A stretch of DNA of 64,000 nt from Clostridiales bacterium (lineage in GTDB: Bacteria > Bacillota > Clostridia > Oscillospirales > Oscillospiraceae). Positions 17,983 through 37,808 of this stretch are shown here, piece by piece. The DNA lies in assembly GCA_022772525.1 (NCBI GenBank), contig JALFAD010000080.1, positions 1 to 64,000 of the forward strand, given 5' to 3'. Made by a program: the position numbers and the translations under genes. Position 1 is the stretch's first letter; the number at the start of each line of letters is the position of its first letter. The notes beneath the pieces are model-generated. The model worked only from the letters and a program-made list of their open reading frames with translations, did not search any database and had not been told where the DNA came from.

Positions 17983-18022
17983 ATAAAAAACGCGGCAGCC
18001 TGAAAAAAGCTGCCGCGAACGT
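17983..18022 (-). terminator. Intrinsic terminator of the minus-strand riboswitch
   Basis: Minus strand CGCGGCAGC...GCTGCCGCG followed by TTTTTT. Confidence 0.75.
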
Positions 18023-18069
18023 TTTTACGCAACACAAATAAACAGGTGTGTCCCCCTGTGTTTATCATT

Positions 18070-18240: not shown

Positions 18241-18817
18241 CCCCCGGGCCACAAGAATCTATATTTGTCTTTCATTATATCCATGAATTAGGAAAAAGTC
18301 AAAGGGTAAGCATATTAGTAATGTGATATATCATAAATGATATATCACAGAAAAGTGGAGGGAAAGTTCCGTGGCTTGGTATCATAATAAGAATAGCATT
18401 ATAAATGTCAATTCTTCGTACTGTTATGCAATAAATTCATAGCCAGGAAAAGACAACCAGTTAAACTGCCAGAAGAAAGCAGAGTTGCAGCGGACGTGCA
18501 GAAAGCTACTATAGTATCTGGGACGATGGGCCATACTTCGCAAAGGCTTTTTTACAAAATTTGTAGAAAAAGAAACAAAATAATTACAATATATAGAATA
18601 AAAACGAAAACGGCAACGCAATATATTGTGTGATATAGGAAATATGTTATTGACAAAATGGAAAATCGGTTATACTATACTGATAAGAAATGCGAGTAGA
18701 GGTTTTGTGTGCGTAAAGGCATCGCAGTCAGGTAAAAAGCCTAATAAGGGAATGGGGTACCGAGCCCCATGCCGTGTGCGTTTAGAAATCAGTCTGTGAC
18801 TAATTTGAATCAAATAA

Positions 18818-19006
18818 TTGTTTCCGTGGCCGGACATATCGCATGACGACTGTCTGGCTGAACAAGAGAACGGGGTGTAAGTCCCCACGCTGCCGGCACT
18901 GTAAGTGTCAAGACGGCCTGTCGTTGGTGAAAGCCAGTCATTGGAGAAATCTGAGAAGGCAGACAGGCCATCGTTTGAGACACAAGTCAGGAGACCTACG
19001 GGAACA
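18818..19006 (+). promoter_or_regulatory. Cobalamin riboswitch
   Basis: GAACAAGAGAACGGGGTGTAAGTCCCCACGCTGCCGGCACTGTAAGTG...GGTGAAAGCCAGTCATTGG...GAGAAGGC...CACAAGTCAGGAGACCT. Confidence 0.9.
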
Positions 19007-19066
19007 TGTGTAGTCGCTTTGCTTCGAGAACTGGGCAAAGTGGTTGGTTTACGACGCAGGAAAACG

Positions 19067-19104
19067 GCTGCGGCGGTCTGGAGTTGACCGCCGCAGCTTT
19101 TATT
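19067..19104 (+). terminator. Riboswitch expression-platform terminator
   Basis: 12-bp stem GCTGCGGCGGTC/GACCGCCGCAGC followed by TTTTATTT. Confidence 0.85.
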
Positions 19105-19599: not shown

Positions 19600-19745
19600 T
19601 GCGCGACCGAGTGGATTCCACGGGACACGCGTTCTTGTTCGGCTGAACAAGGGAATCCGGTGCAAAACCGGGACACATTGCTCAAAACGGTGGTGCAGTC
19701 AGCATAGGGGATACGGTCTAAATGCGTAAGTCAGATGACTTACAA
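19600..19745 (+). promoter_or_regulatory. Probable second (variant or partial) cobalamin riboswitch
   Basis: GCTGAACAAGGGAATCCGGTGCAAAACCGGGAC core and downstream GTAAGTCAGATGACTTAC; other arms not clearly canonical. Confidence 0.5.
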
Positions 19746-19867
19746 ACGATGCAAGCAAGTGCGGTCTAAGCGTAAACGCCCCGATGGCTCCGCGTGGAAC
19801 AGGCCGGAATAAACCCTGCTTTCCGCCATAGGCGATTTCATAAATATCAAAGCAAAGGAGAATGTAT

Positions 19868-22800
19868 ATGCGAACAAATGGAAAACGCCTGCTGTCGTTG
19901 ATGCTTGCTGTGCTGATGATTATCAGCATTTTGCCTGTATCTGCTTTGGCAGCGGGAGAAACCGAGATCGGCAATCAGTCGGAACTGGCTGCAATGAAAA
20001 GCGGCGGCAGCTATATTCTGACCCAGGATATTACATTGGAAAACTGGACCGCCATGGATTTACCGAAAGGCACCACTTTCAATGGTAACGGTCACACCAT
20101 TACTTTGACAGGGGCACCGCTGTTCGCCAACATGGAGGGCACGGTCATCAATCTGATCCTAAAAGGCAGTGTTGCGCAAACGGCAAACAAAAATACCGGC
20201 GCTCTGAGCCAAACCTGTTACGGTACGATCCGCAATTGCATCAGTGATGTAGCTGTGACCTACAGTGGAACCAGCAAATATATCTATGTTGGCCAGATAA
20301 CCGGATCTTATGAGTCCGGCAACAGCATCAGCAACTGCCTGATGCTGGGAAGCATTACCCCTGGAGCGTGTACTGCTTATGGTGCGGCAGGTGCGTCTTT
20401 TGCATCCTTGTCCATCAGTAACTGCGTAGCTGTTGGCTATGACAAGATCGCATATCAGGATTTTGCGGGTAATGTCAACGGAACAAATTGCACGCTGGTT
20501 GCAGGGGATTCCTACAACCCTGCGGATTATCTGGATTTCTTTAACACCTACCGCGGGGATGATCTGGCGTGGGAGCTGGCCGATGGCGCTCTGGCGCTGA
20601 AGGCCGAGGCGGCTGCCTCTGAAACAGCAACGCAGGAGCAGATGGCCGCATTGAACGAGGCGATTGCCGAGGCTGAAGCTGTGGACAAGACAAAGCTCTA
20701 TACCGCGAGCAGTTTGACCAGCTACAACAGTGCGCTGTCTGCTGCTAGGAGCAAGGCAGCGGAAACCGAGCCCACGGCATCCTCTGTGACATTGGCAACC
20801 ACCGCTCTGAACAGTGCTGTTGCCGGACTGACAGAACGGAATACTGCTGCCGTGGCGTTGCCGGACAGCAGTGTAGTTACCGTAACCCAGGATAATTTTC
20901 AGACCCTGCTGAAAGCGCCGACGGCTGGTGTTTATTACCAGTTTTCAGAAGATATTACGCTGAGCTCGAGCTATTGGATGGGATCGTATAATACCATGAA
21001 TGCCGTATTGGACGGCAATGGTTACACCCTTACACTGAACGGCGTTTCTCCCTTGTGGGGTACCATCGGTGAAAACGGCATCGTTCAGAATCTGGGCATA
21101 AAAGGTTCTGTGGCAGATGGCTATGAGCCTATTGGCAATCTGGCAAAACAATGTTCCGGTCTGATCGTAAACTGCTGGAGTGAGGCGGATACAACCAATT
21201 CTTCCAGCACTGTTACCGGTGGATTTGCAGCAAAACTGCTTTCCGGCGGCGCTGTTGTCAACTGCTGGAATACGGGCAGCATTACAACTAGCGGCAGCAG
21301 CCAGATAGGCGCGATCGTCGGCTCTGCGGAAGGAAACACCCTGATTCAGAATTGCTATTGGCAGGATGAAACCCGGAACGCTGTGGGAGCTGGCAGCGGC
21401 ATTGTAACGAACAGTAGCGTAAAGACGCAGAGCGAATTTGCTTCTGATGAATTTGTGGACCTTCTGAACAGCAACCGGGGCACATACGGAAAACAGTGGA
21501 ATATGTCCAGCACCGGCTATCCCTGGTTTGGAGAAGCGCAGGAGTACATTCCTGAGACGCCCGAAGAGCCAGTGGAAATTACCTTCACCTCCAAAAAGGG
21601 TATTGTCACCACCTTTATGAGTGACGAGGGGCTGACCATTTCTCTGAGTGATTTGGAGGCGTCAGATACTTACTATGCCGGTAAGCTGTCCATGGAAGGT
21701 GCTACCAGCTGGAGTGATGACGGGAAGAACCTGATTTACAACGATAACGAGCTTTATCTGAGCAACAAGACGGGAACCTATACGATCACCGTCTCTTATG
21801 GCGATGGTGAAAGCAGAAGCTTCAATGTCAATGTGGTGGAGCCGGCGGATGCCGTTGCCCTGCGGCTGGTTGTCGACGGTCAGGCCATCACGGACGGTCT
21901 GCTTACGGTTCAGGGCAGTGAGCGAATTGTGTTCTCTGCCGAGGCACAGTATAGCGAGGGCGGCGAATGGGAGTCCGTTCCCACCACGCTGCTGAGCTTC
22001 ACGACAACAGCGGGAACCGATGAAGCGTATGTCAACGGCTCTGTGTTCTATGCCAAAAAGCCCGGTTTGGTGACTGTTACCGCTTCCGGTCTGGGCCAGA
22101 CCGTTAACGTGGCGATTACCTCGGAATATGTAGCCGTAACAGCCATTAAACCTGCGCCCAGCGGCACCTATACTGTCCACGAGCGCAACGCCAACAGCGA
22201 TAGCTTGGGCAATTTCGTTGATCTGATGCTGGGCCATGGTGTGGGAAATGTTAACATCACCCCGGGCAATGCCAGCTATCAGGGCTGGACGCTGACATCC
22301 AGTGATACCGAGGTTGCCGAGTATGTGGATGCGTTCCTGAAAGCGGTTCTGCCGAAGAAGGCAGGTACAACCACGTTGACTGCAACTTCCGAAGATCCTA
22401 ATGTAGCGGTTAGCGGCACCAGCCAGATCACCATCCAGTATAAGAATCCTGTGACGGCTGTTACCTTCACCGACGAAAACAATGCGCTGACCATTCAGGA
22501 GGGCGAGACGCTTGATCTGCCCCTGACCTTCACCGGCACCAGCGGTATGGAAGATTACCATGTGACTGAGCCCGGCATGACCTGGAGCTTTGAAAGCAGC
22601 GACGGCGGCGAGGTCACCATCTACCGGGAGAGCCAAGGTGTGCTTGTGCGCACGGAACAAGAGTACTGTGTTGCCAATGATGCGTACAAGATTACTGGCG
22701 ACGCAGCTGGTACCGTCACCGTCACCGGTACCCCTGTGGATACCACTGGCGGTGCACAGAGTGTGACCTTCACTGTGACTGTGGAAGAGGGCGAGGAAAC

Positions 22801-24535
22801 AGCTGTTGATGTGAATGCACTGATTTCCGAGGCAATGCCTGCGGCCCAGAGCTGGCTGCAAGCAAACGGCGCCCAAAGCTATTCCTTTGGCAAAGAGTGG
22901 GAGGTATTCACGCTGACCCGCTCCGGTGTAAGCATTGACCAGGCGAAGATTGACGCTTACCTGGCATCTATTGAGGAGACTTATTCCGCAGAGACGATCT
23001 CCGACACAGCGAAGGTCCGAACCACCATCGCCCGTGTAGCGATCACCCTGGGCGCGCTTGGAAAAGATGCTTCCAACTTTGAAGGAATCAACCTCATTGA
23101 AATGCTGTACAACGATTTGGAGTCGAATCTGGATTCCAATGCCTACATCTGGGCGCTGCTGGCCATTGATTCCGGCGCTTACGAGATCCCGGAAGGCGCA
23201 GCCTGGACAAGAGACGCCCTGATCAACAAGATTCTGACATTCGCAGCGAGCAGCGGCGGCTTTGGCTTGAGCAACAATACGGAAGTCAGCGTGGATATGA
23301 CCGGTATGGCGCTGCAGTCTCTGGCCCCCTATTACGGCAGCAACACTAATGTACAGACCGCTGTGAACAACAGTCTGACTTATCTACAGAACGGTATGAC
23401 CCGTAATGCTGAATTCGGCAGTGCGGAATCCACCGCACAGGTATTGGTAGCGCTGACCGCATTGAGCAGGAACCCGCTGGCAGAGGAAAACGGGTTTGTC
23501 AAGAGTGTTGCCCGTAATATCATTACCGGCATCTGCACATACCGCAACAGCTCCACCGGAGCGTTCCAGTACAGTGGCAAGGATAATAAAATGGCAACCA
23601 TTCAATCCCTGTATGCGCTGGAATCCTATGTCCGCTACAGAGATGGGGAAAATGCCCTGTATGACCTGACCGATGCGGTAGTCAAAGTTCCTGCCGTGGA
23701 ACCCGCGGACCCCGTTCAGATTTCTGTAACCATTTCCAATAAGGGCACCCTGGTCATGGCGCAGAACACCGTTACCGTTACCGACCGGAACGAGGACGGA
23801 AAGCTGGATGTGGATGAGGCGCTGTATGCAGCCCACGAGGCGGGCTTCACCGGCGGCGCCGGCGCAGGCTATGGCTCGGCAGTAGGCAACTATGGTCTGG
23901 GCGTTACCAAGCTGTGGGGCGTTGAAACCACTAATGCTGGTTATTGGCTGAATGATGCCTCCTGCTGGAGCCTGGAGGATGAAGTAAACGCCGGCGATTA
24001 TCTGGTCGCCTGGGTTTACCAATCGGCAAACGGGGCGGATTCTTATGCCAAGTGGGACAGCACCAGTGCGTCCGCCACAACCGGCACGGCTCTGACAGTA
24101 TCTTTGCAGAAGGCAGGATACGACGGCGATTGGAACACGGTATTCTCTGCCCTGACCGGCGCAACAATCAAGGCATACAATGCGGATTTGACGGAAGCAA
24201 ATGTCTGCACGGCTGTCGACAATAACGACGGCAGCTATGCCGTGACCTTCACCACCGCCGGAGATTACTATCTGGTTGCCACGGGCAATGAGGATACCAT
24301 TCTGGTTCCCACGGTTTGCAAGGTCAGCGTGGCCCAGGGGGCGGAAGCCGTTCCGGGGGATGTGGACGGTGACGGTGTGGTCATGCTCAGTGATGCCATC
24401 GCTGCGTATACCGCTATGGCCGGTATCACCTCCCCCACTGCAGAGCAGAAGGAAAAGATGGATGTGACCAAGGATGGTCTGCTTCTCATCAATGATGTTA
24501 TGGCGATTTACAGGATGGCCGCAGGTCTGTCCTGA
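19868..24535 (+). CDS. Secreted transcobalamin-like protein: FIVAR/Ig-like regions, alpha/alpha-barrel (prenyltransferase/cobalamin-binding-like) domain, C-terminal dockerin
   Basis: Signal peptide RLLSLMLAVLMIISILPVSALA; barrel repeats SVDMTGMALQSLAPYYGSNTNVQTAVNNSLTYLQN; dockerin GDVDGDGVVMLSDAIAAYTAMAG...MDVTKDGLLLINDVMAIYRMAAG. Confidence 0.85.
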   Translation: MRTNGKRLLSLMLAVLMIISILPVSALAAGETEIGNQSELAAMKSGGSYILTQDITLENWTAMDLPKGTTFNGNGHTITLTGAPLFANMEGTVINLILKGSVAQTANKNTGALSQTCYGTIRNCISDVAVTYSGTSKYIYVGQITGSYESGNSISNCLMLGSITPGACTAYGAAGASFASLSISNCVAVGYDKIAYQDFAGNVNGTNCTLVAGDSYNPADYLDFFNTYRGDDLAWELADGALALKAEAAASETATQEQMAALNEAIAEAEAVDKTKLYTASSLTSYNSALSAARSKAAETEPTASSVTLATTALNSAVAGLTERNTAAVALPDSSVVTVTQDNFQTLLKAPTAGVYYQFSEDITLSSSYWMGSYNTMNAVLDGNGYTLTLNGVSPLWGTIGENGIVQNLGIKGSVADGYEPIGNLAKQCSGLIVNCWSEADTTNSSSTVTGGFAAKLLSGGAVVNCWNTGSITTSGSSQIGAIVGSAEGNTLIQNCYWQDETRNAVGAGSGIVTNSSVKTQSEFASDEFVDLLNSNRGTYGKQWNMSSTGYPWFGEAQEYIPETPEEPVEITFTSKKGIVTTFMSDEGLTISLSDLEASDTYYAGKLSMEGATSWSDDGKNLIYNDNELYLSNKTGTYTITVSYGDGESRSFNVNVVEPADAVALRLVVDGQAITDGLLTVQGSERIVFSAEAQYSEGGEWESVPTTLLSFTTTAGTDEAYVNGSVFYAKKPGLVTVTASGLGQTVNVAITSEYVAVTAIKPAPSGTYTVHERNANSDSLGNFVDLMLGHGVGNVNITPGNASYQGWTLTSSDTEVAEYVDAFLKAVLPKKAGTTTLTATSEDPNVAVSGTSQITIQYKNPVTAVTFTDENNALTIQEGETLDLPLTFTGTSGMEDYHVTEPGMTWSFESSDGGEVTIYRESQGVLVRTEQEYCVANDAYKITGDAAGTVTVTGTPVDTTGGAQSVTFTVTVEEGEETAVDVNALISEAMPAAQSWLQANGAQSYSFGKEWEVFTLTRSGVSIDQAKIDAYLASIEETYSAETISDTAKVRTTIARVAITLGALGKDASNFEGINLIEMLYNDLESNLDSNAYIWALLAIDSGAYEIPEGAAWTRDALINKILTFAASSGGFGLSNNTEVSVDMTGMALQSLAPYYGSNTNVQTAVNNSLTYLQNGMTRNAEFGSAESTAQVLVALTALSRNPLAEENGFVKSVARNIITGICTYRNSSTGAFQYSGKDNKMATIQSLYALESYVRYRDGENALYDLTDAVVKVPAVEPADPVQISVTISNKGTLVMAQNTVTVTDRNEDGKLDVDEALYAAHEAGFTGGAGAGYGSAVGNYGLGVTKLWGVETTNAGYWLNDASCWSLEDEVNAGDYLVAWVYQSANGADSYAKWDSTSASATTGTALTVSLQKAGYDGDWNTVFSALTGATIKAYNADLTEANVCTAVDNNDGSYAVTFTTAGDYYLVATGNEDTILVPTVCKVSVAQGAEAVPGDVDGDGVVMLSDAIAAYTAMAGITSPTAEQKEKMDVTKDGLLLINDVMAIYRMAAGLS

Positions 24536-24601
24536 TCGGCACAGTTTGCTGTTCGCTTACCGGGCAGAGCGTCTGCCCGAAGAAAGGAATGGAAAGGCTT
24601 T

Positions 24602-25234
24602 ATGAGAAAAACCGCCAGAATATGTTCCCTTTTGATGGCGGCGGTGCTGATTGCGGCGCAAACACCTTTCGTCGCCGCCGGGGAAGAGGAGCAATCGTCC
24701 CACGAATGCACAGCGGTTCTGCTGACGGTTGTGGATGAGCAGTCCCACACAGTGAGCTGCCCGGAATGTGGTGCGGCTGTGACGGAAGCCCACAGCTTTG
24801 GCGGCTGGAATGCCCAGGACTCCCAATGCCATGTCAGCGTCTGCACCTGTGGAGCCAGTATGACGGAAGGACATGCCTGGAACGACGGTGTGTTGGATGA
24901 AGCGGCTGGCGTCAGAGTTTATACCTGCACAGCCTGCTCCGCCAGCTACACGGAAACGGCAGAGACGTCTGAGGAAGAAATGGAAGAACCGTCCGAGAAG
25001 GAAACGAAAGACCCCCTCGGGGACGAACCCACGCAAATTCCGAAGTCCGCTCTGCCCGGCGATGTGGATGGAGACGGGGAGATTACAGCCGATGATCTGA
25101 AGATGATCAGCTCCATTTCTCAGGGAACGCTTCCATCCGTTACGGAGCTTCAGATCAAAGCCGCAGATTACAATCAGGACGGCTGTGTGAATCTGGCAGA
25201 TGCGGTGCTCATCTATCTGGTTCTGATGGGATAA
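24602..25234 (+). CDS. Secreted CxxC/His-rich protein with dockerin
   Basis: Signal peptide; repeated VSCPECGAAVTEAH, VCTCGASMTEGH, YTCTACSASYTE; dockerin GDVDGDGEITADDLKMISSI...ADYNQDGCVNLADAVLIYLVLMG. Confidence 0.8.
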   Translation: MRKTARICSLLMAAVLIAAQTPFVAAGEEEQSSHECTAVLLTVVDEQSHTVSCPECGAAVTEAHSFGGWNAQDSQCHVSVCTCGASMTEGHAWNDGVLDEAAGVRVYTCTACSASYTETAETSEEEMEEPSEKETKDPLGDEPTQIPKSALPGDVDGDGEITADDLKMISSISQGTLPSVTELQIKAADYNQDGCVNLADAVLIYLVLMG

Positions 25235-25269
25235 CAGGATCGGGACACAGCTTAAGAAAGGAATGTAAA

Positions 25270-27582
25270 GTGATGAAAAAAATCGTCAGCTTTTTGCTGG
25301 CATTGGTTATGATCCTGAATCTCGGGATCACAGCCTTTGCTGAGGGGACCTATACTATATCCCTGACTACTGAGGATGACACGGCCGATGTGTCGGAATA
25401 TGTCTATGTTACAGTCAGCGGCAGCCAGACTATAACATCGCCGGGGGCCCAGGCGTGTGTGGAATTTGATCCAGAATATCTGGAATATGACGAATCCAAA
25501 TCCACCATCGGTACTGCCTGCTCGACCTTTACCGCAAAAGCAATGAATCAGGCTGGGCATGACTATGTTTCCCTTGCCTTCCAGTCCCTTGGTTCACCCA
25601 TTGAGCTGGCGGCGGGGACCTGGTATACTCTGGCGTTCAAGACCCTGAAGGCTGGAAATACAACGGTTTCCATCTGGCAGAAATTCGTATATGACAGCAG
25701 CTACGCGGAGATCACCACGACTGCCACCGACACCGTTACCTTCACCATCACCGAGCCGTCTACCAATGTTCCTGTTACCGGTGTCACGCTGAATCAGACG
25801 GCACTGCCCCTGGGTGTTGGTTCTTCCAGTACGCTGACCGCTACTGTGGCTCCTGAGAATGCCACCAACAAGGCTGTCACCTGGACTACCGACAACGCTG
25901 AGGTTGCCACCGTGGCAGATGGTGTCGTAACCGCCGTTGCCGAAGGCACGGCAACCATTACCGCCACCACCGTTGACGGCGGCTTTACAGCTAGCTGTGC
26001 CGTTACGGTTACCGCGGCCGCTACAGCCGAGGGATATACCGTTTCTATGAAGGATTCCTCCGTCACAGCGGCTAAGGGTGGTGCAGCATCCGTAAATGTG
26101 ATGGTCAGTGGTCATTCCGATGAAAACATCACTGGATACAACGACTATGATGTGTATGTCACCTATGACAGCGCCAATCTGACCTTTAACAAGGACGCTT
26201 CCTCCGCTGCGGATACCGGTGCAACCATCGAGGAGACCGAGACCGGCACCATCCGCATCACGGGTCACGGCGATAACAAGGAATTTAGCGCGGCTGTAGC
26301 AACCCTGAACTTCACAGCCAACACTTCCGGCGCGCACAATGTGACCATCACCTCTGCCAAGGTCGATAACAGCGGCAGCGCCATCAGCAACGATGCTCCC
26401 GACGCAACAGTCGCTACGGAAACCACCGTGATCAAGGTTCCCTATTCTGTAACCCTGCCCACCGATAAGGGCTTCTCCAGCGAGCAGACCTCCGTCCTGC
26501 CCGGCGAGAGCTTCACCTTCACAGCGCCTTCCGATGCGGCCTATTACGACATTACTGTCGAAGTCGGCAAGAATACGGTTAAACCCACCATCAGCGGCAA
26601 TACCTACACCATTACCAATGTCGACGGCGATGTCGCGGTGAGCGCTGTGGGTAAGACCTACGATGTTACGGTTGCGGACACAACCGCAAGCGTTACTGCC
26701 GGCAATAAAGCACAGTATGGCGTAGACTACAGCTTTACCGTCACTGCTTCCTCCGGCAAGGTGATCGAGAGTGTGACTGCGACTGTCAACGGTACGCCGG
26801 TTACACTGACAACTTCTGGCGGACAGTATGTAATCCCTGGTAAGTCCATTACCGGCGCAGTAGTCATTCGTGTCACCGAAAAAGACAGCGGCAGTACCGA
26901 AACTACTACGAGCGTCACCATCACCGGCATTGATGTAACGGAAATTGAGGGTGGTGCTTTGACGCAGACTGTAACAGTTGGTCAGCCCTTCCCATTCCGT
27001 CTGATTAAGCAGTCCGGTTACAGCTACATTGTCAAGGTCGGCGGCATTGAGATCACACCCAATGAGGACGGCAGCTACACCATCCCCGGAACCATGATCA
27101 CCGCTGGCGGTGTCACAATTACCATCGAAAAGACATTGACACCTGTGGCTGAGGTTACCGTAACGAATTACATTCAGCTCGACGGTAAAGTTATGTGGCT
27201 GATTACGGCTACAGCTGAGGACAAAGTGCTGGCCTATGGTGAGGAAGGCACAATGTTCTGGTCGGATCAGTACGATGCCTACTGCTGGCTGGTAATCTCT
27301 GCGGAAAGCGAGGATGCGGTTAAGACTGCCGCTCAGGCCGCCATTACCGAAGCTACAGAAAGCGCTGTTGCAACCACAGTTGCTTATGACAAGGATGTCA
27401 ACCAGACCAACGCTGTGGATATCAATGATGCCCAGCTGACCTATGATATGTATCAGGCGAAGGCTTATGAGGACTTCACGAATGTTTCTATGGATAAATT
27501 CCTGGAGGCTGACGTGAACGCAGACAAGACCGTGAATACCGAAGACGCTGCCGCCATCGTTGCAGTGGTTCTTGGTAAGTAA
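25270..27582 (+). CDS. Secreted scaffoldin-like protein: two cohesin-like domains, BIG2, C-terminal dockerin-like repeat
   Basis: Cohesin-like ACVEFDPEYLEYDESKSTIG and YDVYVTYDSANLTFNKD; BIG2 VPVTGVTLNQTALPLGVGSSSTLTATVAPENATNKAVTWTTDN; DVNQTNAVDINDAQLTYDMYQ...ADVNADKTVNTEDAAAIVAVVLGK. Confidence 0.8.
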   Translation: MMKKIVSFLLALVMILNLGITAFAEGTYTISLTTEDDTADVSEYVYVTVSGSQTITSPGAQACVEFDPEYLEYDESKSTIGTACSTFTAKAMNQAGHDYVSLAFQSLGSPIELAAGTWYTLAFKTLKAGNTTVSIWQKFVYDSSYAEITTTATDTVTFTITEPSTNVPVTGVTLNQTALPLGVGSSSTLTATVAPENATNKAVTWTTDNAEVATVADGVVTAVAEGTATITATTVDGGFTASCAVTVTAAATAEGYTVSMKDSSVTAAKGGAASVNVMVSGHSDENITGYNDYDVYVTYDSANLTFNKDASSAADTGATIEETETGTIRITGHGDNKEFSAAVATLNFTANTSGAHNVTITSAKVDNSGSAISNDAPDATVATETTVIKVPYSVTLPTDKGFSSEQTSVLPGESFTFTAPSDAAYYDITVEVGKNTVKPTISGNTYTITNVDGDVAVSAVGKTYDVTVADTTASVTAGNKAQYGVDYSFTVTASSGKVIESVTATVNGTPVTLTTSGGQYVIPGKSITGAVVIRVTEKDSGSTETTTSVTITGIDVTEIEGGALTQTVTVGQPFPFRLIKQSGYSYIVKVGGIEITPNEDGSYTIPGTMITAGGVTITIEKTLTPVAEVTVTNYIQLDGKVMWLITATAEDKVLAYGEEGTMFWSDQYDAYCWLVISAESEDAVKTAAQAAITEATESAVATTVAYDKDVNQTNAVDINDAQLTYDMYQAKAYEDFTNVSMDKFLEADVNADKTVNTEDAAAIVAVVLGK

Positions 27583-27597
27583 AACGCATATCATGAG

Positions 27598-27651
27598 CCT
27601 TCAGAATTTCTGAAGGAACCTACGCACCTCCCCCGCTTTCAGCGGGGGAGG
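27598..27651 (+). terminator. Two adjacent intergenic hairpins without a U-tract
   Basis: CCTTCAGAATTTCTGAAGG and CCTCCCCCGCTTTCAGCGGGGGAGG. Confidence 0.55.
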
Positions 27652-27721
27652 TAAGCGGCATCTTTCGGGGCTTTACAGGTGCGGCCCCAAATTCGAGGCT
27701 TTGGCTGTAAATATCCGAAAA

Positions 27722-28768
27722 AACCATTTAGGAGGAATCCATATGAGAAAAATTCTGTCCCTGATACTGGCGGTTGTCCTGCTGCTGTCCTGTGTGCCTG
27801 CTGCTTTGGCGACAGACAATTCACGGGAATTTTTCTTTGAGCTATCCGTTGATGGCGGCGATACTAAGCAGGTTCAGCCCGGCGATGTGATCACGGTGGT
27901 GTTCAATCTGAACCGAACGGACAGTGCGGAACCTTATGATATGTACGCCATGCAGAATGAAATCCGGTATGACAGCCGTTTTTTTCGGCTGGTGGAAGGC
28001 AGTGCATTGCTTACCGATGGTATCCATACCACTGATCTCGGATTGCGGGATGAATACCGGGAGTTTTACATGAACTTTGTGTCCATGTCCGGCGGAGAAA
28101 AATGGGATGCCAGACGTTTGGTGGGCAGTATCCAGCTGGAAGTGGTCGGGCAGACCGGTGTGTCAAAAATCACGAATCAGGACTACCTGGTTTCTACTGC
28201 CAATGGCCAGGATCATTATGAGACCGCTTGTCAGGATGTGACCATCATTATATCCACTGACTGCACCGTAACGTTTGAATCCAATGGCGGTACAGAGGTT
28301 CCCAATCAAATTGTCAACTATGGTGAAAAGGTACAAAGACCGGAAGATCCTGTGCGCAAGGGTTATCATATCGAGGGCTGGTATACGGACATCGATATGA
28401 AAAATCTCTGGGACTTTGAAAATGACACCGTCCAGGGGAATATGACTCTGTACGCCAAGTGGGCAGATGGAGATCCTGCCGGTGGCTTCCAGTGGCTGTG
28501 GCTGGTGATTGGCCTGTTGATTCTGGCGCTGCTTTTGCTCCTGCTTCTTCTGCTGAGGAGAAAAACCGTGCGCTTTGAGACCGGCTGTGAAGCAGCAATC
28601 AAGAGTCAAAAAGTGAAAAAGGGCAGTTATGCGGAGCGCCCTGAGAATCCAATTCGTCCGGGTAGAACCTTTGTCGGCTGGTACAGCAACCGGGAAATGA
28701 CTGAAAAATGGGATTTTGAGAACAACAAAGTGAAAAAGAACATGACTCTATACGCAAAGTGGATGTAA
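27722..28768 (+). CDS. Membrane-anchored cohesin-like protein with InlB B-repeats
   Basis: Signal peptide; cohesin-like NEIRYDSRFFRLVEGSALL; InlB-type GYHIEGWYTDIDMKNLWDFENDTVQGNMTLYAKW; LWLVIGLLILALLLLLLLLLRRK TM. Confidence 0.75.
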   Translation, partial: NHLGGIHMRKILSLILAVVLLLSCVPAALATDNSREFFFELSVDGGDTKQVQPGDVITVVFNLNRTDSAEPYDMYAMQNEIRYDSRFFRLVEGSALLTDGIHTTDLGLRDEYREFYMNFVSMSGGEKWDARRLVGSIQLEVVGQTGVSKITNQDYLVSTANGQDHYETACQDVTIIISTDCTVTFESNGGTEVPNQIVNYGEKVQRPEDPVRKGYHIEGWYTDIDMKNLWDFENDTVQGNMTLYAKWADGDPAGGFQWLWLVIGLLILALLLLLLLLLRRKTVRFETGCEAAIKSQKVKKGSYAERPENPIRPGRTFVGWYSNREMTEKWDFENNKVKKNMTLYAKWM

Positions 28769-28803: not shown

Positions 28804-28898
28804 AAGCCCAGGCTGGATTCTTACGCATGACTGTCAGGTATGGCGGCTGTGCGTAAAAACCCAGAATACCAACTCAACCTTATGGGAGGTTGTTACAG

Positions 28899-31800
28899 AT
28901 GAAAAGACGATTGACAGCAGTTTTACTCATACTGGCAATGCTTATGGGCTTGTTCCCCATGCAGGCATTGGCAGAAGACAATACACCAACCTCTGCGCAG
29001 AGCATTTTTCTTAGCCAAAGTCAGGTGCAGATGCAGGTTGGAGAGCAGATTAGGCCGACAGCGGAGGTCATCCCGGAAAGTGCGGCTGCTACAGCAGTAT
29101 GGGTGTCCCAGGATGAATCGATTGCTACTGTAGACAATGGTGTGATCACTGCCGTAGCTTCCGGAAATACGACCGTTTCTTTGGAAGTGGGTTCTTTAAA
29201 AGCCTTATGCAGTGTTACTGTTGTTTCGAAGCTGCGGAACGCCTCTCAGGACGACATGATCACGGTTTTTTTCAGCATCTTGGGTGACAGCAAGCACGGA
29301 AATAACGGTGAGACCCATACTCTGGTAGATGGAAATTTGACAGTGTGGCTGGAGCAATCAGCTTATACTGTATCTGCGCAAGCTACGGTTAAGGATGTTT
29401 TCCTGGCGGCAGTAAAGGGAAAAGAATATTCTTACGAAATCCGTGATGGAGACTATCTCGCTACCGTAAATGAGCTTTCAGAATTGAGCAACGGACCGAG
29501 ATCGGGCTGGAAATATCTGCTCAACGGCAGTTATCCCAATGAGAGCATTGCGGCTCAGGAGGTACGCCAAGGTGATGCAATTGTACTTCATTATACGGAC
29601 GATTACACTAAGGACGATAATAAAAAAATTGGTACGGATGCTATAGAGCCGGTCATTCAACAGATCAGCAGTTTAGAAGAAGTCACCATAGCGAATGAAA
29701 CAGACATCCAGAAAGCGCGGGAAGCCTATAATGCATTGTCACCTGGTCAAAAACTGGCTGTTGGCAATTACATCCTTCTGACCGAGGCGGAGGTGACCTT
29801 GACCGAAGCCCTCATCGATCAGATACCGGCGGAAATTACGCTGGATTCCGCGGACGGGATTGCCCATGCATTGTCTGCCTACAATCGACTGTCGGATGAT
29901 CAGAAGGAACTGGTGAAAAACCAAGAAAAACTTACCACCGCAAAGAAAAAGCTGGATGAACTGAAAGCTCCCGTAGAACGTGTGATAGAAAAAATAAAAG
30001 AGCTTCCGGAAGAAATAGCGTTAAAGGATGAAGAAGCAATCACTGCGGTACGGGATGCTTATAATTTGCTGCGGAAGGAGCAAAAAGAGCTTGTAACAAA
30101 TTATACGGTACTAACCAATGCGGAGGATGCTCTGGACCGTTTGAAAGCTGCCGCCGTGGATGATTTCATTTATGCCATTCCCCCTGAAACAGAGCAGGAT
30201 TTCCAGCAGGCTATTATCAATGCTAGAACAGCTTATGATAGGTTAACCGAAAAACAAAAAGCGCTTGTTGAGAATTATGATGCATTAACAGCAGCAGAAG
30301 AACGGCTGAACGAATTAAAAGCTGCCGCTGTTATCGCGCTGATTGATGCAATACCGGAAGAAATCAGGCTGGCTGACGAGCAGATCATTGCGCAGGCGAG
30401 AACGGCTTATGATTCCTTAACCGATGTGCAGAAGAACCTGGTGACCAATTCCAACAAACTGGTCACAGCAGAACGAAAACTGGAAATTCTGAATCTGCCT
30501 GCCACAGAAAAGATCTATCAGCAGACCGGTGATTATCTGGCAACGAAAGATACACCCGGTGTCGGTTCTGTCAATGGCGAATGGCGTGTCATTGGTCTTG
30601 AGAGAAGTGGACGTAAGGTAACCGATGGTTATTACAAAAATGTTGTTGAGTACGTTCTTGCCCATATCAACGAAAAAGAGTGGTTGGATGCGGCTAAATC
30701 CACAGAGAACTCCCGCGTGATCCTCGCCCTGACAGCAATGGGTTATGACGTAACCAATGTTGCCGGTCATAACCTCCTGGCCGGTTTGAATGAAATGTCT
30801 TACATTCAAACGCAAGGAATCAACGGCCCAATATGGGCGCTGATTGCGCTGAATTCTCATGATGATTATAAACCCACTGGAGATGTTACCCGGGAGAAGC
30901 TGATTCGTAGTATATTGGCTGAGCAGCTTGGAGATGGTGGCTGGGCCTTGTCCGGGAATGCATCTGAACCAGATGTGACAGCTATGGCACTCCAGGCACT
31001 TGCTCCCTATTATCGTACCCGTTCTGATGTAGAATCCGCTGTTGAAAGCGCCTTGAACTATTTGTCCGAAGCGCAGAGCCCTGACGGCGGATACGGTATC
31101 GGAGGAGATGCTACCTGCGAATCTGCTGCACAGGTTGTTGTGACTTTGACCGCTTTGGGTATCGATCCTGATACGGATCCCCATTTTGTTAAAAATGGTG
31201 TGTCGGTACTGGACGCCATGTGCACATACGCAGTGGATGGTTCTGGATTTACTCATATCTCCGGCGGCACGATCGATGATATGGCTACCGAGCAGGGATA
31301 CTATGCGCTGACTGCGTATTTCCGCATGAAAGCGGGAAAGACTTCCCTGTACGATATGTCTGACGTCACGATTGCGCCAAACCATTATAAGATCATTGAA
31401 GGTGGAGACGGTAAATGGAATACGGATGTACAGACTTATACCATTGTGTCTGATGGTGTGTTCGCGGAATTCACAGGCATTAAGGTGGATGGAACGCTGA
31501 TTGACAGCAGTAATTACATTAAGGTGGATGGAACGCTGATTGACAGCAGTAATTATACCACAAAAGCCGGCAGCACCTATGTGACATTTGAAAACAGCTA
31601 CCTGAAAACGCTGTCCCTCGGCAGGCACAGCATAACGCTTGTTTTTGAAAGCTGTGAGGTAACGACAAGCCTGATGGTCACGAAGAGCGATGCAGAACTT
31701 GTCCGGGATGTGGAAGCCCTGATAGATGCCATCGGTACTGTCACGAAGAGCAGTAAGGCGAAGATCGACAAGGCAAGGAATGCCTATAATGCGCTGACAG

Positions 31801-33371
31801 CCGAGCAGCAAAAATTGGTCACCAATTACAATAAGCTGACCACCGCAGAAAAGGCATATGCAGATCTGGCTGACAAGATTACGGTTTACTTCACACTGCT
31901 GGGTGATACTGCTCATGGCGACAACGGGCAGGAGCATACTCTGACAGGTGGCAACCTGACCACCTGGATTTCAAGGACAGCTTACACACTGGAGTCTCCT
32001 GCTACTGTGCTGGATGTGTTTACGAAGGCTGTCAGCGGGAAATACAGTTATGTCAACAAAGGTAACTACATTTCTTCTGTTAATGGCCTGGCTGAATTTA
32101 CAAATGGCAAGAATTCCGGCTGGATGTATACCCTGAATGGAAGGCACCCGAATCTTGGCGTTGCGGAACAGAAACTGTCAAACGGTGACAGCGTGGTATT
32201 CCACTACACGGATAACTATACCAAAGAACGCGGCAGTGGAACAACGGGAAATCAAACCATGGGTAAAACAACAAATGGATTCCTGACGGCGTTGGCAGAA
32301 GATCAAAGCTATGCGAATGTGTACCAGACTACCGGCGATTATCTGGAAGCACTGGGAACACCTGCAGTTGGCACAATTGGCGGAGAGTGGATGGTCATCG
32401 GTCTGGCCCGCTCTGGCCGTAAGGTTCCGGAGGGATACTATGATAGCGTGGTCAAATATGTCACGGAAAATATTGATGCCAATGAACGCCTCCATTCCAA
32501 CAAGTCTACAGATAACGCACGACTTATTCTGGCGCTGACTGCAATCGAAAAAGATGTGACCGATGTGGCAGGGCATAACCTGCTGTTGGGCCTGAATGAT
32601 ATGCATTACCTCCAGAAGCAGGGTATCAACGGCCCGATTTGGACGCTAATTGCGCTGGACTGCAGCAACTATCCTGCCCCCACTGGCGGAGATGTCAGCC
32701 GCGAGGCCCTGATCCAGGTTATTCTGGATGCACAGTTGGGAGACGGCGGCTGGGCATTGTCCGGTGAGAATGCGGATCCCGACATGACCGGTATGGCGCT
32801 GCAGGCGCTGGCTCCTTACTATGACCGCAATACGTCTGTTCAGGCTGCGGTTGACCATGCGGTTACCCTGCTGTCCGAAATACAAGACAGTGACGGCTGC
32901 TATTCCGGTGTCGACGGCGCCAGCTGCGAATCCCTTGCACAGGTTGTTGTAGCATTGACTGCGCTGGATATCGACCCCGATACGGATACTCGCTTTATCA
33001 AAAATGGCGTTTCTGTTTTGGATGCATTGCTGCGGTATGCCGTCAGTGACGGTGGTTTTAGACACGTCCTGACGGGCCAGCGGGACGGCATGGCTACGGA
33101 GCAGGGCTACTACGCGTTGACTGCCTACAATCGGTTCCTGTCTGACAAGAGCAGTCTGTATGACATGACCGATGTGATCAACAGGGGCGGTGATTCTGTT
33201 GTGATTCCGGAAGAAACTGCCGTACACACAACTACTGAGCCTGTTGAGGCGGTGCCTGCTAAGAGCGGCGGTTTCCCTTGGCTGGCGATGGTGCTGGTTT
33301 TGGTTATAGTTTCCGGCGCAGGTGTGCTGACAGTTACTGTCATCATTCCAAAGTTCAAGAAAAAGGATTGA
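28899..33371 (+). CDS. Membrane-anchored double transcobalamin-like protein (BIG2, DUF4430, FIVAR-like repeats, alpha/alpha barrel, DUF4430, second barrel, TM)
   Basis: DUF4430 NSGWMYTLNGRHPNLGVAEQKLSNGDSVVFHYTDNYTKE; paired barrels GGWALSGNASEPDVTAMALQALAPYY and GGWALSGENADPDMTGMALQALAPYY; C-terminal TM then KFKKKD. Confidence 0.85.
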   Translation: MKRRLTAVLLILAMLMGLFPMQALAEDNTPTSAQSIFLSQSQVQMQVGEQIRPTAEVIPESAAATAVWVSQDESIATVDNGVITAVASGNTTVSLEVGSLKALCSVTVVSKLRNASQDDMITVFFSILGDSKHGNNGETHTLVDGNLTVWLEQSAYTVSAQATVKDVFLAAVKGKEYSYEIRDGDYLATVNELSELSNGPRSGWKYLLNGSYPNESIAAQEVRQGDAIVLHYTDDYTKDDNKKIGTDAIEPVIQQISSLEEVTIANETDIQKAREAYNALSPGQKLAVGNYILLTEAEVTLTEALIDQIPAEITLDSADGIAHALSAYNRLSDDQKELVKNQEKLTTAKKKLDELKAPVERVIEKIKELPEEIALKDEEAITAVRDAYNLLRKEQKELVTNYTVLTNAEDALDRLKAAAVDDFIYAIPPETEQDFQQAIINARTAYDRLTEKQKALVENYDALTAAEERLNELKAAAVIALIDAIPEEIRLADEQIIAQARTAYDSLTDVQKNLVTNSNKLVTAERKLEILNLPATEKIYQQTGDYLATKDTPGVGSVNGEWRVIGLERSGRKVTDGYYKNVVEYVLAHINEKEWLDAAKSTENSRVILALTAMGYDVTNVAGHNLLAGLNEMSYIQTQGINGPIWALIALNSHDDYKPTGDVTREKLIRSILAEQLGDGGWALSGNASEPDVTAMALQALAPYYRTRSDVESAVESALNYLSEAQSPDGGYGIGGDATCESAAQVVVTLTALGIDPDTDPHFVKNGVSVLDAMCTYAVDGSGFTHISGGTIDDMATEQGYYALTAYFRMKAGKTSLYDMSDVTIAPNHYKIIEGGDGKWNTDVQTYTIVSDGVFAEFTGIKVDGTLIDSSNYIKVDGTLIDSSNYTTKAGSTYVTFENSYLKTLSLGRHSITLVFESCEVTTSLMVTKSDAELVRDVEALIDAIGTVTKSSKAKIDKARNAYNALTAEQQKLVTNYNKLTTAEKAYADLADKITVYFTLLGDTAHGDNGQEHTLTGGNLTTWISRTAYTLESPATVLDVFTKAVSGKYSYVNKGNYISSVNGLAEFTNGKNSGWMYTLNGRHPNLGVAEQKLSNGDSVVFHYTDNYTKERGSGTTGNQTMGKTTNGFLTALAEDQSYANVYQTTGDYLEALGTPAVGTIGGEWMVIGLARSGRKVPEGYYDSVVKYVTENIDANERLHSNKSTDNARLILALTAIEKDVTDVAGHNLLLGLNDMHYLQKQGINGPIWTLIALDCSNYPAPTGGDVSREALIQVILDAQLGDGGWALSGENADPDMTGMALQALAPYYDRNTSVQAAVDHAVTLLSEIQDSDGCYSGVDGASCESLAQVVVALTALDIDPDTDTRFIKNGVSVLDALLRYAVSDGGFRHVLTGQRDGMATEQGYYALTAYNRFLSDKSSLYDMTDVINRGGDSVVIPEETAVHTTTEPVEAVPAKSGGFPWLAMVLVLVIVSGAGVLTVTVIIPKFKKKD
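31479..31556 (+). repeat. 39-bp in-frame tandem duplication
   Basis: ATTAAGGTGGATGGAACGCTGATTGACAGCAGTAATTAC/T twice, encoding IKVDGTLIDSSNY x2. Confidence 0.97.
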
Positions 33372-33424: not shown

Positions 33425-34657
33425 TTGACCAGAATGAAACGAATCCTTTGCGTTCTGCTGACGGCAGCAATGCTCGGACAACCATTGATTATAACAGCCC
33501 ACGCTGCGGACGAGAATCCTGTAGGCACGGAAGAATCAATTGCCATGGGCGAAGCAGGTTGCGCTGTGGAAACGCAGATTTCCGAAATCCTGGAGGAAAT
33601 CACAGTTTCTGCGGAAACTGAGGAGACTCAGCCTGAGGAATCCGTTCCCGGGGAGACAATTGCCGAAGAAACAGTGCCGGAAGAAACAGAAGAAGCATCG
33701 AAAGAATTTGATTGGACAGAGGTCTACACCCACGAATTTCCCCTGTACTCTCAGCTGGATTACCCAAATCAGCGCTATGGCAGCGGCACCGTTGCCACCA
33801 GCGGCTGCGGCATCACATCTCTTGCCATGGTAGCCTCCTATCTCACGGGTCACGCCTATTACCCGGACGAACTGGCAAGGTATTTTGGCGGATACGGGGA
33901 AAATAATGTCCAGCGCTTTGAATACGGTGCTGAGCAGCTTAAGATGCCGATCCATAAAGCGGACACCATTCGCGATATATTCGCTGCCCTGAAAAACGGC
34001 GATGTGGCGGTCCTTCTGATGAACCATATGTCCCTGTTCACCGAGACCCAGCACTTCATTGTGCTCACTGGTATCAATGAGGAAACCGGTAAAATCATGG
34101 TTTATGATTCCTACCCGCCCAATTATGAGAAGTGGGATTTGAAGCGCGGCTTTGTGGAGGGCTTTGAAGAAAAAGACCTGATGCTTGGCTACAACGGCGG
34201 CTGGATATTCAGTGTCCGGGGAATGCCGGAGGTCCCGTTCGTCTACACCGAGGAAAAGCCCGAAGCAGATCCACGCTACAATGTGGAGCTGACATGGGAG
34301 GAACAGCAGCTTCTGGCAAAGATCATCTGGCTGGAAGCCCGCGGCGAATCCAAGGAAGGCCAGCAGGCCGTTGCCGAGGTGGTCCTCAACCGTCTTGCCT
34401 CCGGCGAATTCGGTGACAGCCTTTCTGCGGTCATCTATGGTGAAGGCCAGTTCAGGACGACCCCATTCCTGGATACAGCGGAAGCATGGCAAGCTCAGTA
34501 TGAGGCGATCGATGCCGCTCTGGAAGGCCCCAATATTCTTCCGATGGATGTGATGTATTTTGCCACCTATCCGGAAAATGATCAGGTGTGGGGACAAATC
34601 GGCGGACATATTTTCTGCTACTCCAATGGGTACAACCCGGAGGAAATCCCAAAATAA
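33425..34657 (+). CDS. Secreted C39-like peptidase fused to SleB-like cell-wall hydrolase
   Basis: SGCGITSLAMVASYLTGHAYYPDELARYFG (C39-like) plus LLAKIIWLEARGESKEGQQAVAEVVLNRLASGEFGDSLSAVIY (Hydrolase_2/SleB). Confidence 0.85.
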   Translation: MTRMKRILCVLLTAAMLGQPLIITAHAADENPVGTEESIAMGEAGCAVETQISEILEEITVSAETEETQPEESVPGETIAEETVPEETEEASKEFDWTEVYTHEFPLYSQLDYPNQRYGSGTVATSGCGITSLAMVASYLTGHAYYPDELARYFGGYGENNVQRFEYGAEQLKMPIHKADTIRDIFAALKNGDVAVLLMNHMSLFTETQHFIVLTGINEETGKIMVYDSYPPNYEKWDLKRGFVEGFEEKDLMLGYNGGWIFSVRGMPEVPFVYTEEKPEADPRYNVELTWEEQQLLAKIIWLEARGESKEGQQAVAEVVLNRLASGEFGDSLSAVIYGEGQFRTTPFLDTAEAWQAQYEAIDAALEGPNILPMDVMYFATYPENDQVWGQIGGHIFCYSNGYNPEEIPK

Positions 34658-34711: not shown

Positions 34712-35296
34712 ATGAAGAAAAAGAAATTGGCAAATGTCATTATGGTGCTGATTATCCTGGTGATTGCTGTTGCCGGGATCGCTGCGGCTTTCAGCCTGAG
34801 AAACGGTCAGGATACAGGACTGGGCAGCCAGTACCATATTACCAAGATTCCGGACAATGCGCTCATCACCCAGGGCGAGGACAATGTCTGCACTATCACC
34901 ATTGTCTGCGACACCATTCTGGATAATCTGGACAACTTGGAGGAAGAAAAAGCGCCCTATGTTCCGAAGGACGCGGTGATCCTGCCAAAGACGCAGGTTT
35001 CCTTTACGGAGGGAGATACGGTCTTTGAAGTTCTGCAAAAAGTCTGCGCGGCGGCAGAGCTTCAGATCGAGTACAGCTGGACACCCATGTACAACAGCTA
35101 TTATATTGAGGGTATCAACCATCTGTATGAGTTCGACTGTGGAAACGAGTCCGGCTGGATGTACAAGGTCAACGAATGGTTCCCCAACTATGGCTGTTCC
35201 GCCTACACTCTGAAAAACGGGGACGACATTGTGTGGTGCTATACCTGCAACGGCCTGGGTGCGGATGTGGGAGAAGTGTGGACGGGTGACGAATGA
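34712..35296 (+). CDS. Membrane-anchored DUF4430 (transcobalamin C-terminal-like) protein
   Basis: N-terminal TM; TVFEVLQKVCAAAELQIEYSW...YIEGINHLYEFDCGNESGWMYKVNEWFPNYGCSAYTLKNGDDIVWCYT. Confidence 0.8.
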   Translation: MKKKKLANVIMVLIILVIAVAGIAAAFSLRNGQDTGLGSQYHITKIPDNALITQGEDNVCTITIVCDTILDNLDNLEEEKAPYVPKDAVILPKTQVSFTEGDTVFEVLQKVCAAAELQIEYSWTPMYNSYYIEGINHLYEFDCGNESGWMYKVNEWFPNYGCSAYTLKNGDDIVWCYTCNGLGADVGEVWTGDE

Positions 35297-36174
35297 GAGA
35301 CGATGCCTTTTCCAAGCGGCACCCAGCGGTGAACTTTGCATTTTTCATTGGAGCCATCATCTGCGCGGTGGTCATCCAGCACCCGGCGTACCTAAGCGCC
35401 GGGATGCTGTGCGGCGGGGCTTATTACCTGCTGCTCCATGGGCGCAGGGGCGTGAAAATGGTTCTGGGAATGGTGCCAGTATTTCTGGTGCTGACCGCTA
35501 TGAACCCGCTGTTCAACACCTACGGGGACAGGGTGCTGTTCCGGTACTTTGGGCGACCCTATACGCTGGAAGCTTTGCTTTACGGCGGGGCCATCGCCGC
35601 GATTTTTGTGGAGATGCTGTTGTGGTTCGGCTGCTATAACGCGGTGCTGACCAGCGATAAATTCACCAGCCTGTTCGGAAAGTTGATCCCGGCCCTGTCC
35701 CTGCTGCTGGTAATGGTTCTGCGGATGATCCCCAACCTACTGCGTAAGGGCGCCCAGATCACGGAGGCCAGAAACGCCATTGGCAGGGGCGCGGCGGAGC
35801 AGGACACAGTGAAGGGAAAGCTGGGGGAGGGCATGACCCTGCTGGGAGCACTGACCTCCTGGGCGCTGGAAGGCAGCGTGGTGACTGCGGATTCCATGCG
35901 CAGCCGCGGCTATGGAAGCGGAAAACGCTCCAGCTTCATGATCTACACCATGACCGGACTGGACTGGGGACTTCTGGCAGCACTGGCCGTTCTCCTTGTG
36001 GGCATGATCGTGCTGGGTGACCGCACTGCTGCCTTCACACCGGTGCTGAATATTGCACCCATCGGTGGGAGAAACCTACCGGGATTTCTCTGCTACCTCT
36101 GCTATCTGCTGATCCCAATTGCATTACACATAAAGGAGGCCATCCAATGGCGCATTTCAATATCGAAAATCTGA
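35293..36174 (+). CDS. ECF transporter T component (EcfT-like 1)
   Basis: Multi-TM; LRMIPNLLRKGAQITEARNAIGRG and ADSMRSRGYG motifs. Confidence 0.85.
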   Translation: MRDDAFSKRHPAVNFAFFIGAIICAVVIQHPAYLSAGMLCGGAYYLLLHGRRGVKMVLGMVPVFLVLTAMNPLFNTYGDRVLFRYFGRPYTLEALLYGGAIAAIFVEMLLWFGCYNAVLTSDKFTSLFGKLIPALSLLLVMVLRMIPNLLRKGAQITEARNAIGRGAAEQDTVKGKLGEGMTLLGALTSWALEGSVVTADSMRSRGYGSGKRSSFMIYTMTGLDWGLLAALAVLLVGMIVLGDRTAAFTPVLNIAPIGGRNLPGFLCYLCYLLIPIALHIKEAIQWRISISKI

Positions 36175-37808
36175 CCTTTTCCTATGCCGCCGCCAAGGGC
36201 AGGCATTCGCTGGAAAACGTCAGTCTCAAGGTGGAACAGGGAGAATTTCTTGTACTGTGCGGAAAGTCCGGCAGCGGCAAAAGTACGCTCCTGCGGCATC
36301 TGAAAACCGTACTGACCCCCAACGGAAAACGCACGGGGGAAATCGCGTTCCACGGCGTTCCGCTGAGCAGGGTATCTGACCGGGACCAGGCGGAGAAGAT
36401 TGGCTTTGTCATGCAGAATCCCGACGATCAGATCGTTACGGACAAGGTCTGGCACGAGCTGGCCTTCGGGCTGGAAAGCCTGGGATGCGACCAGAAGACT
36501 ATGCGGGCAAGAGTTGCGGAGATGGCCTGCTATTTTGGCATCCAGGACTGGTTTCACCGGGATGTATGCAATCTCTCCGGCGGACAGAAGCAGCTATTGA
36601 ATCTGGCCTCCATTATGGCGATGCAGCCGGAGGTGCTGATTCTGGACGAGCCGACCAGCCAGCTTGACCCAATCGCCGCTTCTGATTTTCTGAATACTGT
36701 GCGGAAGATCAATCGGGAGCTGGGCACCACAGTTATCATTACGGAGCATCGTCTGGAGGATATTTTTCCCTATGCGGACAGGGCTGTCGTTATGGATTGC
36801 GGCAAGGTCATAGCGGACGATGCCCCTCGGAATGTAGGCAAACTCCTGTATGAACAGCATCACCCCATGTTTACGGCTATGCCCACGCCTGTCCGGGTTT
36901 TCTACGGCGCTGCGGGGGTCGGGGAATGTCCTTTGACTGTCCGGGAGGGCAGAAGCTGGCTGAGCAAAGCGTTTCCCCAGACACCCCAATATCCGGCTAT
37001 CCCAGCTCCCGAGCTTTCGGAGGAAACAGCATCCAGCGCCCTGTCTCTCAAGGAACTCTGGTTCCGCTATGAAAAGGACAGCCCGGATATCTTAAGAGGT
37101 GTCAGTGCGGAAGTGCCAAAAGGAAGCCTGTATGCCATTCTGGGCGGCAACGGCGCGGGAAAATCCACCACGCTGAAAGCCACCTGCGGCATCTGTAAGC
37201 CCTACCGTGGAAAGGTGACGCTGTTCGGAAAGCCCATCGACAAATACAAGAATCGGGAGCTGTTTACGAATTGCCTTGCCATGCTGCCCCAGGACCCCAA
37301 AAGCCTGTTTGTGAAAAAGACTGTCCGGGAAGATCTGGAGGAAATGACCAAGGACAAAGCGGAGATTTCACACATTGCCGAGCTTTGTCAGATTACCTCT
37401 CTTCTGGACAATCATCCCTATGACCTCTCCGGCGGTGAACAACAGCGCGCTGCGATGGCGAAGGTGCTGTTGACCCAGCCAAAACTGCTGCTTCTGGATG
37501 AGCCAACCAAGGGCATTGACTGCTTCTTCAAGGAGACCTTTGCCGAAATTCTGGGGAATCTGAAGAAAGAGGGAATTACCATTGTTATGGTTTCCCATGA
37601 TGTGGAGTTCTGCGCCCGGTATGCAGATCAGGTCGCCATGTTCTTTGACGGTCAGATTCTGACCACCGACACACCCCACCGTTTCTTCGGAAGTAACAGC
37701 TTCTATACAACCGCTGCCCACCGCATGAGTCGCCATGTGTTCCATATGGCGGTCAAGGTGGAGGATGTAGTCGATCTGTATCGGAAAAACAAGGAGGCTG
37801 CAAAATGA
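36147..37808 (+). CDS. Fused duplicated ECF ATPase (EcfA-EcfA')
   Basis: Two Walker A (GKSGSGKST, GGNGAGKST) and two ABC signatures (LSGGQ, LSGGEQ). Confidence 0.93.
   Translation: MAHFNIENLTFSYAAAKGRHSLENVSLKVEQGEFLVLCGKSGSGKSTLLRHLKTVLTPNGKRTGEIAFHGVPLSRVSDRDQAEKIGFVMQNPDDQIVTDKVWHELAFGLESLGCDQKTMRARVAEMACYFGIQDWFHRDVCNLSGGQKQLLNLASIMAMQPEVLILDEPTSQLDPIAASDFLNTVRKINRELGTTVIITEHRLEDIFPYADRAVVMDCGKVIADDAPRNVGKLLYEQHHPMFTAMPTPVRVFYGAAGVGECPLTVREGRSWLSKAFPQTPQYPAIPAPELSEETASSALSLKELWFRYEKDSPDILRGVSAEVPKGSLYAILGGNGAGKSTTLKATCGICKPYRGKVTLFGKPIDKYKNRELFTNCLAMLPQDPKSLFVKKTVREDLEEMTKDKAEISHIAELCQITSLLDNHPYDLSGGEQQRAAMAKVLLTQPKLLLLDEPTKGIDCFFKETFAEILGNLKKEGITIVMVSHDVEFCARYADQVAMFFDGQILTTDTPHRFFGSNSFYTTAAHRMSRHVFHMAVKVEDVVDLYRKNKEAAK

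Follow-up and report, generated by a model that had tools for sequence, protein, structure and literature searches.

What are cohesins and dockerins doing in an operon that shows no recognizable carbohydrate-active enzyme (CAZyme)? The question is raised by a 64,000-nucleotide stretch of a Clostridiales bacterium (contig JALFAD010000080.1, positions 1 to 64,000; hereafter the window), which an earlier reading of the DNA had suggested to reuse a cellulosome-type logic for another, unnamed ligand. We computed the domains, the secretion and anchoring signals, the riboswitches, the operon order and the recurrence of the locus in other genomes, and from these we infer the ligand, the cohesin-dockerin partners, the order of hand-over and a remodeling step. 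The operon is probably a corrinoid (vitamin B12 family) scavenging system, its outer part organized by cohesin-dockerin contacts and its binding proteins feeding an energy-coupling factor (ECF) importer. The corrinoid function is strongly supported, with the identity of the ligand read from context, and domain content and secretion signals support a predicted assembly of anchor, adaptor and cargo.

The original prediction placed two dockerin proteins, a two-cohesin protein with its own dockerin and a membrane-anchored cohesin between positions 24602 and 28768. All four proteins exist, on the plus strand, and three of them lie in that interval; the one with the VTKDG dockerin repeat, p1, ends upstream of it. 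Protein p1 (19862..24535; 1,557 amino acids) carries its dockerin at 24344-24529, and the Cys/His-rich p2 (24602..25234; 210 amino acids) has a C-terminal dockerin at 25046-25231. The scaffold p3 (25270..27582) consists of cohesin 1 (25366-25719), a Big_2 domain (25771-26004), cohesin 2 (26056-26376) and a degenerate dockerin (27382-27579), and p4 (27701..28768; likely ATG start at 27743) carries a cohesin at 27860-28222 and two Flg_new/InlB B-repeats. By hydropathy, p1, p2 and p3 are secreted, with signal peptides and no further membrane segment, while p4 and the next protein, p5, each combine a signal peptide with one transmembrane segment. These signals fit the roles of cargo, scaffold and anchor, and the postulated minimal set is present in p1 to p4. 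One B-repeat of p4 lies on each side of its transmembrane segment, as in loci L061 (a sister species) and L042 (a related genome), and one of the two would consequently be cytoplasmic.

Dockerins were scored against the curated Pfam cut-off for Dockerin_1 (PF00404, 22.9 bits) and cohesins against that for PF00963 (24.1 bits). The dockerin of p2 passes at 33.6 bits; that of p1 reaches 27.4 bits in a genome scan and 21.6 in a whole-protein scan. A cohesin hidden Markov model (HMM) seeded solely from cohesins outside the operon, which replaced a circular one built from the window's own cohesins, detects both p3 cohesins (domain E values of 5e-6 and 1.4e-6; whole protein, 1e-10). It does not match the p4 cohesin. 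An AlphaFold model of p4 (predicted local distance difference test [pLDDT] score, 75.5; predicted template modeling [TM] score, 0.74), made from an alignment that included other cohesins, retrieves solved cohesins at ranks 1-16 among 350,542 PDB chains, with TM scores of about 0.62-0.70. On this model, p4 is predicted to have the cohesin beta-sandwich fold, in line with the anchored cohesin originally claimed. The 2.29-Mb metagenome-assembled genome (MAG) that hosts the operon yields three matches to the dockerin profile at E ≤ 0.1 and two to the cohesin profile at E ≤ 0.001, every one of them in this operon. These, the only Pfam-detected cohesins and dockerins of the genome, fall within a single 4-kb stretch, and their clustering is more than chance.

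One alternative is an ordinary relative of the cellulosome, amylosome or mucinolysome with carbohydrate-directed cargo. The module families are identical, and a gene joining a dockerin to the toroid described below also occurs in Ruminococcus bromii, the owner of an amylosome (PMC5814915). However, profile scans of p1 to p7 found no CAZyme or carbohydrate-binding module over threshold, as the original prediction had held; the sole candidate, a CBM_X2-like match in p5, scores 20.0 bits against a cut-off of 28.9. With a B12 riboswitch and ECF genes in the same operon, we consider such a carbohydrate-directed system extremely improbable.

What, then, would the cargo bind? Two cobalamin riboswitch aptamers (RF00174) lie in the window, at 18807..19017 on the plus strand and 18055-18266 on the minus strand, and score 58.2 and 54.0 bits, respectively, against a gathering threshold of 31.5. 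The first lies upstream of the operon, reaches 128.8 bits with a model of its own genus and is followed by an intrinsic terminator-like hairpin (19066..19098, plus strand) that is a candidate attenuator. The leader of p1 contains a degenerate second riboswitch-like element (19635..19749, plus strand; 34.9 bits and E = 4e-9 with our model R1), which Rfam does not see at E ≤ 0.5; L042 has a second tandem riboswitch at the equivalent position (1999-2226). Compact or degenerate variants of this kind were also seen in L092 (8909-8998) and L099 (8911-9048), all three at about 30-35 bits with model R1. A small open reading frame (ORF) of about 52 codons (19128-19286), YezD/DUF2292-like by eye, lies between the riboswitch and a second hairpin. 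The minus-strand riboswitch directly precedes a LysR gene (17030-18037, minus strand), near a gene for a RACo-like corrinoid-activation protein (14246-16294, minus strand) and a DUF1638 gene (13267-13920).

The 3′ part of the operon, all on the plus strand, encodes a complete ECF set whose components exceed their profile cut-offs: a CbiQ-family T component (35293..36174; PF02361, 28.5 bits, cut-off 25), two fused ATPases (36147..37808; TIGR04520, 348.4 bits, cut-off 315) and an S component of PF07155/PF12822 (37805..38509; PF07155, 58.5 bits, cut-off 26.7). A second CbiQ-like T component follows (38499..39380; 16.9 bits, below cut-off), and then a CbiR-like TIM-barrel protein that possibly removes the lower ligand of cobamides (39377..40144). 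CbiQ-family T components under a cobalamin riboswitch could also serve the uptake of cobalt or another metal, with riboswitch control as for CbiMNQO. We judge metal uptake improbable, since the S component matches PF07155/PF12822 and not CbiM, the extracellular proteins resemble transcobalamin and the operon ends in a CbiR-like gene.

The transcobalamin-like character of these proteins resides in alpha-alpha toroids in p1 and p5 and in DUF4430 domains. The toroid of p1 (22847-23686) precedes a DUF4430-like domain (23741-24046). Protein p5 (28890..33371, plus strand; likely ATG start at 28899) is a membrane-anchored tandem of two DUF4430-plus-toroid units, with DUF4430 at 29262-29618 and 31887-32234 (94 bits) and toroids at 30528-31376 and 32334-33179; p7 (34712..35296, plus strand) carries one DUF4430 (73.2 bits) behind an N-terminal membrane anchor. 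The p5 and p7 domains exceed the Pfam cut-off. Between them, p6 (33425..34657, plus strand) encodes a secreted protein with a C39-like peptidase domain and a SleB-type cell wall hydrolase domain. In an AlphaFold model of p1 residues 980-1557, the toroid is confident (pLDDT mostly above 90), and a Foldseek search of the same PDB chains ranks transcobalamin 1-12 (E values between 3e-6 and 2e-5, with alignments some 400 columns long) and haptocorrin 14, with prenyltransferases and C3 thereafter. In a PDB search with a DUF4430 profile built from 54 sequences, the best match is haptocorrin (E = 0.014) and the next is transcobalamin-2 (E = 0.054); in each case the aligned part is the beta domain. 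As modeled, p1 is thus a toroid-plus-beta-domain protein of the transcobalamin type, with a low-confidence beta part.

In sequence searches, squalene-hopene cyclases are the better match to the toroid profile, so the case for a carrier depends on the fold, the order of the domains and the context. This match, together with the place of prenyltransferases next in the fold search, is what speaks for surface enzymes related to terpene cyclases or prenyltransferases, or for C3d-like binders of another ligand. Transcobalamin nevertheless ranks above all of these by fold, and the toroids are linked to cobalamin riboswitches, DUF4430 and ECF genes, which makes that explanation very improbable. Together, the riboswitch, the transcobalamin-like domains, the ECF transporter and the CbiR-like gene indicate that the ligand is a corrinoid; the idea of a cellulosome-type logic turned to another ligand is supported, with a candidate for the ligand.

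Several results weigh against a corrinoid operon organized by cohesins and dockerins. The profile check divided: the dockerins of p1 and p2 pass Pfam, whereas that of p3 does not (10.6 bits in the protein scan and 15.3 in the genome scan), and all window cohesins are below cut-off (20.6 bits for p3 and 20.0 for p4). The p3 sequence shows both Ca-loop-like repeats, and the dockerin of its L042 counterpart (779 amino acids) passes at 28.4 bits. The DUF4430-like part of the p1 model is of low confidence (pLDDT of about 28-48), its domain orientation is unreliable (root mean square deviation of about 22 Å in the fold alignment) and the PDB sequence matches of the DUF4430 profile to transcobalamin are weak. 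Pfam scans of p1 and p5 at E ≤ 1 returned no match to the eukaryotic Cobalamin_bind family (PF01122). The CbiR-like protein scores 46.9 bits under an NCBIfam equivalog cut-off of 105 (NF041277) and is a relative rather than an assigned equivalog. Finally, the 87%-complete MAG yielded no PF02310 B12-binding domain. It encodes many cbi/cob genes of anaerobic corrinoid biosynthesis (L141 and L143), so corrinoid uptake in this host is probably supplementary.

Does the arrangement recur? In 60 related genomes, DUF4430 was hit 77 times, and 25 of these hits are ≤1 kb from a cobalamin riboswitch, whereas about 0.16% would be expected; 36 of the genomes belong to one genus and hence are not independent. 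A scan of named genomes with a toroid alignment gave 80 loci from other genomes, which carry a riboswitch (63/80), DUF4430 (76/80) and CbiQ-like ECF genes (59/80). In 23 of the 80, including R. bromii, the toroid or DUF4430 protein bears a dockerin, as scored by an HMM built in this analysis rather than by Pfam, and 6 loci have a cohesin. Pfam confirms dockerins over cut-off in R. bromii ATCC 27255 (42.4 bits) and YE282 (49.6 bits) and in loci L104, L119 and L139; the dockerin-toroid gene of YE282 is preceded by an RF00174 match that exceeds the gathering threshold. An R. bromii dockerin-toroid protein is encoded at positions 9140-11041 of L092. L041, L119 and L139 encode a dockerin-toroid protein, directly followed by a membrane-anchored or lipoprotein-like cohesin that exceeds the Pfam cut-off and then by DUF4430 and ECF genes. 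In genome G022 (L042/L043), the related operon is larger and encodes several proteins with cohesins and dockerins; its p4 ortholog shows 64% identity, and cohesin matches of L042 exceed the Pfam cut-off.

These loci also bear on a different role for the modules, in which the operon imports corrinoids and the cohesins and dockerins mediate adhesion or general surface attachment rather than scaffolding the binders. Big_2, FIVAR-like and InlB-type repeats on p1 to p5 are consistent with adhesion, and an adhesin role has been discussed for cohesin/dockerin proteins of other systems (PMC10553843). Against this, those 23 loci have the dockerin on the same polypeptide as the transcobalamin-like binder, and the gene for a membrane-anchored cohesin comes directly next in L041, L119 and L139; we regard adhesion as rather unlikely. 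We lean, with some reserve, toward a wider "corrinosome," in which Gram-positive gut bacteria, including R. bromii, display corrinoid binders like transcobalamin and intrinsic factor on surface complexes built from cohesins and dockerins, from which ECF transporters are supplied; the binders would be relatives, in bacteria, of the fold of animal B12 carriers. The keystone starch degrader R. bromii reportedly cannot make B12 (PMC6231298), and its putative binder might plug into the amylosome scaffoldins.

In the proposed corrinoid-scavenging operon of the window, scarce cobalamin would allow the riboswitch to permit transcription. The secreted transcobalamin-like binder p1, along with p2, would then dock on the cohesins of p3, whose own dockerin would insert into the membrane-anchored cohesin of p4. 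Corrinoid from p1 and the membrane-tethered p5 would pass to p7, the DUF4430 protein in the membrane, and on to the ECF transporter (35293-39380), after which the CbiR-like enzyme may remove the lower ligand. What is seen in the sister species (L061) would be consistent with the dockerins of p1 and p2 pairing with cohesin 1 of p3, and the dockerin of p3 with p4. The former modules are diverged (48%, 58% and 45% identity, respectively) and the latter conserved (p3 dockerin, 92%; p4 cohesin, 99%), as is p3 cohesin 2 (94%). We dropped this codivergence as proof of cohesin-dockerin coevolution: all of the diverged modules fall in a single uninterrupted tract (24100-25750), which takes in the p1 dockerin, p2 and p3 cohesin 1 and has 57-76% nucleotide identity, with the rest largely at 94-100%. 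Synonymous divergence in the tract is high too, a pattern that recombination explains. The tract may be a cassette through which docking specificity is exchanged. Another diverged tract lies in the middle of p3 (26500-27300).

Mobile-element genes flank the operon, with a MobL relaxase and a type IV coupling protein on one side (5469-9808) and two large serine recombinases on the other (41659-45622). Also in the window are a pemK RNA match (Rfam; 41237-41313, 49.1 bits) and an ORF (60723-62420) that matches both the beta-galactosidase small chain (199 bits) and a TraG P-loop (38 bits).

Extracellular corrinoid capture in Gram-positive gut bacteria is poorly known relative to that in Bacteroides, and this operon supplies named candidate binders whose fold is similar to that of the human B12 carriers; cohesin-dockerin modules apparently help to scavenge a vitamin, and the genomes concerned include that of a keystone starch degrader. 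Noncellulosomal cohesins and dockerins and surface B12 capture in Bacteroides were known already; what appears to be new is the joining of this kind of assembly to corrinoid uptake, of which we found no description in the open-access literature (subscription papers and preprints lay outside the search). Like cellulosomes and the R. bromii amylosome with its type I cohesin-dockerin contacts (PMC5814915), the operon has dockerin-bearing cargo, a cohesin scaffold with its own (degenerate) dockerin, a membrane-anchored cohesin and the same module folds. It differs in that transcobalamin-like proteins replace glycoside hydrolases as cargo, a cobalamin riboswitch provides control, ECF genes share the operon and the set is minimal; no carbohydrate-active cargo of the cellulosome kind scores over threshold in p1 to p7. 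Dockerin-bearing ABC substrate-binding proteins of anaerobic methanotrophic (ANME) archaea (PMC9012536) likewise place noncellulosomal dockerins on nutrient-binding proteins, with other binders and transporters and without a described B12 riboswitch or transcobalamin-like fold. Surface corrinoid binders, predicted here, would feed a transporter as in the BtuB-BtuG system of gut Bacteroides (PMC6143338 and PMC10404256), whereas here the surface is Gram-positive, the binder folds are unrelated, ECF replaces TonB-dependent transport and attachment would be through cohesins and dockerins. The vitamin B12 transporter ECF-CbrT (PMC5997447) is also an ECF system with an S component, which here matches PF07155; the operon differs in its two T components, fused ATPases and putative extracellular binders encoded upstream. 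With vertebrate transcobalamin, intrinsic factor and haptocorrin, p1 shares the order of toroid and then beta domain, and the DUF4430 profile reaches the beta domains of two of them. The fold alignment gives only 14-16% identity, PF01122 is not reported, and the operon proteins, as predicted corrinoid binders, are set apart by fusion to dockerin, immunoglobulin-like and helical modules and by the tandem units of p5.

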